From: a virus
IMG/VR virus record: IMGVR_UViG_3300045996_000376
Coordinates: 1-41,278 of that record
DNA length: 41,278 bases
Reading direction: 5' to 3' (one strand)
Position numbers and translations under genes: made by a program. Under the pieces are notes generated by a model, which worked only from the letters and a program-made list of their open reading frames with translations, was not told the origin of the DNA and searched no databases. Shown piece after piece: positions 36,433 to 38,031 of this stretch; the stretch's first letter is position 1, and each line of letters starts with the position of its first letter.

Positions 36433-36584
36433 GCCGCGACCTCCGTGCGCCTTGTCAGCCCCATGGCAGACGCCTTGATCTGCACGGCATTGGCAGACTT
36501 GTTCAGGATCAAGCCAATCACCTTTGCTCTGTACCTACCGTACAAGCGGCGAATCACAATCAGATCTTCGTCGGTCCAAGTCAT
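36429..36584 (-). CDS. Small Myb/SANT-like HTH protein (copy 1)
   Basis: This 51-residue protein (TWTDEDLIVIRRLYGRYRAK, NKSANAVQIKASAMGLTRRT) has ATGA overlaps with both neighbours. It corresponds to the N-terminal domain of the next gene; the repeated TWTDE/KWTDE start and the MGL before the end are shared. Confidence 0.7.
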   Translation of the reverse strand: MTWTDEDLIVIRRLYGRYRAKVIGLILNKSANAVQIKASAMGLTRRTEVAA

Positions 36585-37219
36585 GCTTGCTTTCCTTCCA
36601 GCTGCATTGCCGGCATGACGTCAGATGCCAGCGTGAATTGCGTCTTGGGTGCGGTCGATCCAAGGCGGAGGACGTCGCTCGCCTTCTGCGGATCGCCGAT
36701 CAACATGGGCGGCGAGACCTTGCGGCCATCGATGCGGTTCTGCGCCTCGTACTCGCCGATTAGCTTGGCGGGGTAGACCATGTCCGGTCTGCCCGAATAC
36801 GCCCGGTACGCCTCGCAGAAGCGATGCTCCAGATAGCTCAACTCATTCAGATCAGAGCGGCACACCTTCGTCCAGCCGCCCAGGTCTTCGATGACGGCAT
36901 GGATCACAGCGTCATCGAATGCAACCGATTGGTAGGCACCCACGCGCTGCATGGCATCGAAGGCCTTGGACCAAGCGATGCGCGCCCGATCGGTCTTTGT
37001 GCCGGCCATCTCACGGATGAGGTCGGCCGGCTTCGGCATGAACTGCCCACCCTCCGGGTTCTGAACAGCCTTGGCGAAGGCCTGCTCCACCTGCTCGATG
37101 TCGAAGCCCTCCAGGGCTTTCCACCACAGCAGCACAGCGCCTTCGCTGACACTTTTGCCGTACAGCTCGCTCATGGCCATCAAGGACATCGAGAACCGTT
37201 TGAAATCAACTTGCTTCAT
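36581..37219 (-). CDS. Replication accessory protein, helicase-loader-like (DUF6475 type)
   Basis: This 212-residue protein begins MKQVDFKRFSMSLMAMSELY; then LLWWKALEGFDIEQVEQAFA, QFMPKPADLIREMAG and EDLGGWTKVCRSDLNELSYL. The first half, with its Trp-Trp helix and MPKPADLI, resembles the helicase-loader N-domain of lambda P-like/G39P proteins. It follows the O-like gene at a spacing of 5 bases, as P follows O. ATG 37219 is the first start after the O-like stop; the longer frame would overlap O-like by 120 bases. Confidence 0.7.
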   Translation of the reverse strand: MKQVDFKRFSMSLMAMSELYGKSVSEGAVLLWWKALEGFDIEQVEQAFAKAVQNPEGGQFMPKPADLIREMAGTKTDRARIAWSKAFDAMQRVGAYQSVAFDDAVIHAVIEDLGGWTKVCRSDLNELSYLEHRFCEAYRAYSGRPDMVYPAKLIGEYEAQNRIDGRKVSPPMLIGDPQKASDVLRLGSTAPKTQFTLASDVMPAMQLEGKQA

Positions 37220-37224
37220 GGACT

Positions 37225-38031
37225 TCACCGAAAAAGCTTGGCTTCGAGGGATTGGGTTGCTTGGAGAGTGGCCGCTCCAGCGGCGGAAAGGCCCCCAGGA
37301 GGCGATGCGCGGGCTCCGGTAGGGGGTAGGGCAGCCGCGAGCCATTCAAGCGGCTGGAGCGGCTTTGCTTTGATGCAGTCGCGAAGCTTCGAAATCACCG
37401 CCTCGTCGCCGTGATCCTTGCGCAGCTTGCCGAGGAAGGATCGGGCTTGCTTCTCTGGCGTACCAGCGCTTGCAAGCATCGGCACGCCGTAGCCGAAAAT
37501 GATCTCGACGGGGTCAGTGACCTTGACCGGCTTGGCGTCGAAGGCGCCCGTACCGATAGGTACGGATGTATTTCTCTCTATCTCTTCTCTTCTCTTCTCT
37601 AGCTCCGCATCCCGTCCGCTTTCTGTCCGGGGTTTGTCCGCATCGCATGCGGACATGTTGCGGACATCTTGCGGATCAGGTGCGGACTCTTTGCGCCCAT
37701 TAGCTTTGCGCTGAGCTTCGGAGCACCGCCGTTTAGCTGAGGCACCGTTGTGTTCTTCGAATTTGACGATCACGACACCATCAGGCCCATCGACCAGCCA
37801 GCCGATCTGGCATAGCGCAGCAGCGAAGCCCGCCAAGCCCGTCTTGCGGTCGATCTGGCGCAGCGTCAGGCCGGGCATGAAGCCGTCTTCGGTGTGCTGG
37901 TCAGCAGCAGCCCAAAGCCAGTACAGCGCGCCGATGACAGGACCTTCTGTGCTTTCCGTGAGGTCGCACAGCCGCCCCACCCTGGGGTCGTCCCAGAGGT
38001 TGCCGCGCATCTTGATCCAGTCACCAGCCAT
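37225..38031 (-). CDS. O-like replication initiator
   Basis: This 268-residue protein has an N-terminal winged-helix domain (GDWIKMRGNLWDDPRVGRLC, ALYWLWAAADQHTEDGFMPG, GFAAALCQIGWLVDGPDGVV). A hydrophilic linker follows that is encoded over the iteron cluster, then a C-terminal region (ARSFLGKLRKDHGDEAVISK). Origin inside the gene and a loader-like gene next to it are as in lambda O. It should bind the repeats and open the origin. Confidence 0.8.
   Translation of the reverse strand: MAGDWIKMRGNLWDDPRVGRLCDLTESTEGPVIGALYWLWAAADQHTEDGFMPGLTLRQIDRKTGLAGFAAALCQIGWLVDGPDGVVIVKFEEHNGASAKRRCSEAQRKANGRKESAPDPQDVRNMSACDADKPRTESGRDAELEKRREEIERNTSVPIGTGAFDAKPVKVTDPVEIIFGYGVPMLASAGTPEKQARSFLGKLRKDHGDEAVISKLRDCIKAKPLQPLEWLAAALPPTGARASPPGGLSAAGAATLQATQSLEAKLFR
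37570..37698. other. Replication origin: two opposed iteron arrays plus pyrimidine tract
   Basis: Three GTCCG boxes (37614, 37625, 37636) and four GCGGAC/T boxes (37649, 37660, 37671, 37682), with a fifth degenerate one at 37693, all follow an exact 11-base period. The two sets are inverted and meet at a 19-base near-palindrome (37636-37654, arms GTCCGCAT/ATGCGGAC). Next to it (37570-37600) is a CT-only tract suited to melting. The whole lies inside the O-like gene. The 11-base period puts all boxes on one face of the helix. Origin function is inferred; the pattern is directly visible. Confidence 0.85.

Follow-up and report, generated by a model that had tools for sequence, protein, structure and literature searches.

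A probable phage replication origin of 11-bp-phased half-sites embedded in its own initiator gene

Why does a phage replication gene carry, within its own coding sequence, two opposed arrays of short repeats held at a strict 11-bp step? The window, i.e. the whole stretch of DNA analysed here, is an entire IMG/VR virus record of 41,278 bp. Its genes include those for lambdoid-type functions (terminase, portal, major head protein, DNA-ejection protein, NinB and NinG), and it possibly belongs to a P22-like podovirus, a placing that we infer. A sequence-only reading had proposed an origin with two opposed 11-base arrays inside an O-like gene, and this proposal is strongly supported by the comparison of relatives reported below. 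Very probably, the segment is where the phage starts to replicate its DNA, an origin lying within the initiator gene itself, in the codons for the linker. It is best read as a lambda-like origin, but one made up of half-sites phased at 11 bp and belonging to a family that shows no detectable sequence homology to lambda O.

The protein encoded by the gene in question, P0001, matches PHROG 2509 (E 8e-40 over residues 1–156, the N-terminal domain) and PHROG 9474 (E 4e-24), both labelled "replication initiation protein", and a tblastn search with P0001 found the epsilon15 gene (40% identity). These matches place P0001 in the PHROG 2509 / YdaU-epsilon15 type of phage initiators. The AlphaFold2 model is laid out as a winged-helix domain, a long basic helix of moderate model confidence (residues 91–115, pLDDT ~70), a disordered linker (~133–170) encoded by the end of the arrays and the purine tract, and a helical C-terminal domain (174–234). 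A PDB fold search with this model returned generic winged-helix matches alone (Z 5–6, no standout), among them CRP, plasmid RepA-type proteins (5kbj, 4pta) and DnaD. Solved structures searched by sequence gave no match, nor did a Pfam scan of P0001, and NCBIfam matched neither P0001 nor the DUF6475 protein encoded by the next gene (Table 1).

Table 1. Coordinates of the predicted initiator gene, its embedded repeats and the following gene in the window
Feature	Coordinates	Strand	Basis
Predicted replication initiator gene P0001, 268 aa	37225..38031	-	PHROG profiles, AlphaFold2 model, homologues
Winged-helix domain codons, residues ~10–90	37762..38004	-	pLDDT mostly >90; generic winged-helix matches, Z 5–6
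Basic helix codons, residues 91–115 (R101, E105, K109)	37687..37761	-	AlphaFold2 model; residue-class association in 2 locus sets
First array, GTCCGCA boxes read on the coding strand	37648..37687	-	Sequence and pattern search
First-array boxes	GTCCGCA 37687-37681, ATCCGCA 37676-37670, GTCCGCA 37665-37659, GTCCGCA 37654-37648	-	
Central 19-bp dyad GTCCGCATCGCATGCGGAC, meeting point of the arrays	37636..37654	.	Arms perfect over 8 bp; spacing of 19 bp kept from class to class
Second, inverted array read on the coding strand	37603..37642	-	Sequence
Second-array boxes	TGCGGAC 37642-37636, CCCGGAC 37631-37625, AGCGGAC 37620-37614, TGCGGAG 37609-37603	-	
Purine (GAGAA) tract, CT on the + strand; predicted DNA unwinding element	37567..37602	-	Stability; conservation in relatives
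Hairpin CCGTACC-TATC-GGTACGG, immediately past the purine tract	37548..37565	-	Hairpin recurrence counts
DUF6475 protein gene; predicted lambda P-type helicase loader	36581..37219	-	PF20081 E 7e-31; fold match; gene slot

On the plus strand of the window, exact GTCCG boxes stand at 37614, 37625 and 37636, accompanied by CTCCGCA at 37603, and exact GCGGAC boxes at 37649, 37660 and 37682, accompanied by GCGGAT at 37671. The strict 11-base steps claimed for GTCCG and GCGGAC boxes are thereby confirmed for four GTCCGCA-type and four inverted boxes of good quality, while a fifth inverted box, at 37693, has the poor sequence GCGCCC and is treated as doubtful. The regularity is also apparent in the autocorrelation at lag 11, which is 0.67 in one half and 0.58 in the other, compared with ~0.1–0.3 at other lags (except 22). 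Where the arrays meet, the near-palindrome of the earlier reading turned out to be an inverted repeat of 19 bp whose 8-bp arms match perfectly, GTCCGCAT-CGC-ATGCGGAC on the plus strand (37636-37654) and GTCCGCATGCGATGCGGAC on the coding strand (37654-37636). The 30-nt pattern GTCCGCAN4GTCCGCAN5TGCGGAC has exactly one match in the window, and allowing up to 3 mismatches returns the same single site (0.00 expected in shuffles). When synonymous codons were resampled with the protein fixed, three plus three exact phased boxes arose in 7 of 200,000 draws; because this test was picked after the pattern had been seen, the family-wide test carries more weight.

For the latter, homologues were gathered from viral contigs (80 loci), species genomes (71) and named phages (46 records, 12 examined), and 130 distinct linkers were each searched for the locus's own box word, with synonymous resampling as the null. 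The linkers contain 411 exact boxes (50.3 ± 6.9 expected), 142 same-strand neighbouring boxes at multiples of 11 bp (1.8 ± 1.3 expected) and a 19-bp dyad at 103 loci (1.2 ± 1.1 expected), near relatives being included in the locus counts. Same-direction boxes hold the 11-bp step across gaps of 22 and 33 bp, and the outer length of the dyad is mostly 19 bp in classes A, B and C, and otherwise mostly 30, 41 or 52 bp, i.e., 19 plus multiples of 11. The scan of related phages that the sequence-only reading had suggested found the layout in more than 200 phage and prophage loci, written with differing words: at least five box words occur on one layout (A, GTCCGC; B, GTAACG; C, GTCAC(G/A); D, GTAGAC, with a dyad of 20 bp; F, GTCAGA), and some distant loci, class E, carry GTAACGTAAC-like copies that are mostly direct.

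A further 80 loci, retrieved with a profile of class C, class D and unassigned relatives, formed a second set, and most of its 71 distinct linkers had this layout too. A DNA-only search for the class A layout recovered family members in 80 of 80 cases among the matches listed (78 assigned automatically, one cut at a contig end and one divergent). The words used to assign classes were learned from the same data, with the exception that both the second set and this search came after most of the words were known. Two relatives carry additional boxes. In a divergent class A relative (L281), four GTCCGCA boxes at 11-bp steps form a second array in frame within the part coding for the winged helix (846-885), beside the usual dyad and tract at 1091-1127, and the linker of a class C relative (L192:498-659) holds at least 12 GTCACG boxes, most of them at 11-bp steps. 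The open-access literature searched on YdaU, epsilon15, oriJ and phage iterons did not describe this box layout, and the signature locates a putative origin in more than 200 fetched loci whose origins are undescribed in the open literature searched.

The CT tract noted beside the boxes is real (37602-37574) and reads CTAGAGAAGAGAAGAGAAGAGATAGAGAG on the coding strand, starting directly past the last box; across relatives, the last box ends 1–2 bp before the tract in 115 of 131 loci. By nearest-neighbour stability, the region's least stable 40-mers fall within 37555-37605, the tract is at the 0.1 percentile relative to the 4 kb around it and has the lowest stability in the gene, and in 96% of 147 loci it falls within the least stable 5% of the gene's 40-bp stretches; it is unstable relative to its surroundings, yet not composed of A+T only. 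Relatives use the tract in two reading frames, giving REEKRREE in 120 genes and LEKRREE in 28, and therefore it is the DNA of the tract that is kept rather than the peptide (the third frame would give a stop in CTAGAG). Codon choice is skewed too, AGA accounting for 227 of 230 arginine codons inside the tract and 306 of 2985 elsewhere. The hairpin that follows recurs in position and varies in stem sequence: stems of at least 7 bp are found at 32% of 134 loci, against 5% at other places in these genes and 1.3% after shuffling, and the loops are often of the TAAC, TATC, TAAA or TTCACTACGTTCA type. Past the tract, the C-terminal halves of the initiators (L002-L080) are of several unrelated-looking kinds, some of them DnaT-like, so the origin region marks a junction for domain swaps.

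Residues 101, 105 and 109, which lie one turn apart on the basic helix, track the repeat class in two separately fetched sets of loci. Class A (GTCC) has R101, D/E105 and K109 in nearly every sequence, class B (GTAA) mostly T105-V109, class C (GTCA) mostly A105-K/Q109 and class D (GTAGA) K105-Q109, and the difference between A and B holds alike in proteins with an LWDDP-type winged helix and in others. Since the three codons are upstream of the first box, the association is not simply the boxes read as protein. On the best tree of residues 1–96, which is poorly resolved, there are 17 class changes; class B is found on both sides of one well-supported branch, and few class switches are forced on well-supported branches. 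The basic helix probably reads the box sequence, through these three positions. Because helix and boxes are neighbours in the DNA, joint transfer through genetic linkage could explain part of the association, and selection for a matching helix and box would be the natural reason.

Extended to this widespread class of origins, the association raises the prospect that initiator and origin form a swappable lock-and-key within one gene, whose specificity evolves as a unit and prevents a phage from firing the origin of a relative; we hold the chances of this to be evenly balanced. The helix beside the winged-helix domain would read the half-site through residues 101, 105 and 109, with the boxes overwritten at the 11-bp phase in the codons of the disordered linker, and evolution as a unit would cover new box words and even a second array within the DNA-binding domain, as in L281. 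Repeat and reader, adjacent and switching together, offer a natural experiment on changing protein-DNA specificity, in which a putative recognition code is testable through three residues and one box word.

Several other explanations of the repeats have to be weighed. Conserved amino acids, which the sequence-only reading had named as what could explain the repeats away, receive next to no credence here: class A linkers do share peptides (e.g., SASDADK and REEKRREE), but the pattern is destroyed by synonymous resampling, on which ground we rejected this source. In addition, the 11-bp step shifts the frame at each copy so that the boxes lie in different frames, the purine tract is used in two, and in relatives the repeat sequence and the encoded residues change together from class to class with the 11-bp step and the 19-bp dyad preserved. 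Opposed repeats could also reflect a folded mRNA or single-stranded DNA hairpin, such as an attenuator or a translation control, instead of protein sites, and as RNA the 99-nt segment of the window folds strongly (-50 kcal/mol, z -6.7). However, the spacers lack covariation, their complementarity across the dyad being 0.273 against 0.307 in cross-locus shuffles for class A and 0.251 against 0.248 for class B, which means that the boxes alone pair. Nor does a hairpin need the 11-bp step that same-direction copies keep over 22- and 33-bp gaps, and class E loci have mainly direct copies; the hairpin was accordingly rejected as the cause of the inverted arrays and is highly improbable.

Operators and centromeres often contain dyads whose half-sites are one turn apart, and the boxes might serve some other protein as an operator, partition or other regulatory site. 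This is extremely improbable, given that the repeat class tracks the initiator's own helix, that the boxes adjoin the least stable tract and precede helicase-type genes, and that the class A pattern occurs, among the matches listed, in this gene family alone; the initiator may nevertheless regulate its own gene through the boxes in addition to their origin role. The tract and hairpin, for their part, could be mainly a recombination boundary for swaps of the C-terminal domain, leaving the box array alone as the origin. The C-terminal domains past the tract do differ among relatives, and hairpin sequences vary at a recurrent position, but in most relatives 1–2 bp separate the tract from the last box, no other DNA of the gene is less stable, and lambda has its A+T-rich region at the corresponding place. 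We regard a boundary as the main role as unlikely, and the two roles of the tract may coexist.

Computation established the boxes and their phasing, the dyad, the conservation and low stability of the tract, family-wide conservation that does not depend on protein coding, the predicted domains and the gene neighbourhood; we infer binding, melting and helicase loading by the initiator system. The initiator would bind half-sites separated by one helical turn (11 bp), which would place its protomers along a single face of the DNA; two protomers on the 19-bp dyad would nucleate the assembly and others would extend it on either side. Strain from the bound initiator would then melt the adjoining GAGAA tract, and the C-terminal domain together with the DUF6475 product would bring in the DnaB helicase. 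In lambda, the helicase-loader gene P directly follows O. Among solved structures, the DUF6475 model is matched best by lambda P as it occurs in the DnaB-lambda P complex 9oa1 (over 147 residues, with Z 7.5, below Z 8; next fold match Z 4.9), and a profile comparison between DUF6475 and lambda P relatives was not significant. In relatives, the same slot is occupied by DnaB, a DnaC-type ATPase, lambda P (PF06992) or a primase-helicase. Fold and gene position are suggestive of a lambda P-like loader, which offers helicase loading as a candidate function for this uncharacterised domain.

How does this arrangement compare with known origins? As in ori-lambda, which lies in the initiator gene O with an unstable region next to the repeats (PMC7466680, PMC3349717, PMC5043065), the window has a probable origin inside the initiator gene, a 19-bp inverted repeat as the unit and an unstable stretch (here by computed stability) beside the repeats. 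Ori-lambda, however, is built of four tandem whole iterons (six in Stx phages), whereas the window has one 19-bp dyad flanked on both sides by 11-bp half-sites, and its unstable region is, unlike that of ori-lambda, a GAGAA purine tract. The sequence-only reading had contrasted the opposed arrays with lambda iterons in one orientation, which is imprecise, since every lambda iteron is an imperfect inverted repeat of 19 bp in its own right (PMC7466680); that both systems use 19 bp is a parallel worth noting. Its term "O-like" suits the gene by role and not by sequence homology: none of 48 homologues matched the lambda O families of Pfam at E 0.01, a result at the level of sequence, and a distant common origin of the winged-helix domain with that of lambda O is possible.

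Closer counterparts are found in epsilon15, SPN1S, CP2, phiPSA1 and the YdaU of Escherichia phage Rac (442/2), where a homologous initiator gene carries the same embedded boxes, dyad and purine tract; box counts differ among the PHROG 2509/9474 relatives, and the box word of Rac 442/2 and CP2 is GTAACGC. The oriJ of the Rac prophage is an active origin (PMC3945230). We rejected K-12 oriJ as direct experimental proof on account of the different N-terminal domain of K-12 YdaU: its N-terminal half differs from that of the Rac 442/2 protein, and it combines a DUF1376 domain, of which P0001 has none (no Pfam match), with other repeats. K-12 ydaU (L166:1112-1177) contains TGTTCAAACA twice, 33 bp apart, and once inverted; these repeats are possibly a separate origin of the same design, perhaps oriJ. 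Opposed arrays, which the sequence-only reading took to be distinctive, are not unique to the window: E. coli oriC has two oppositely wrapped arrays of DnaA sites next to its unwinding element (PMC5043065). There, the initiator is DnaA, the sites and spacing are different and the origin is located outside the initiator gene.
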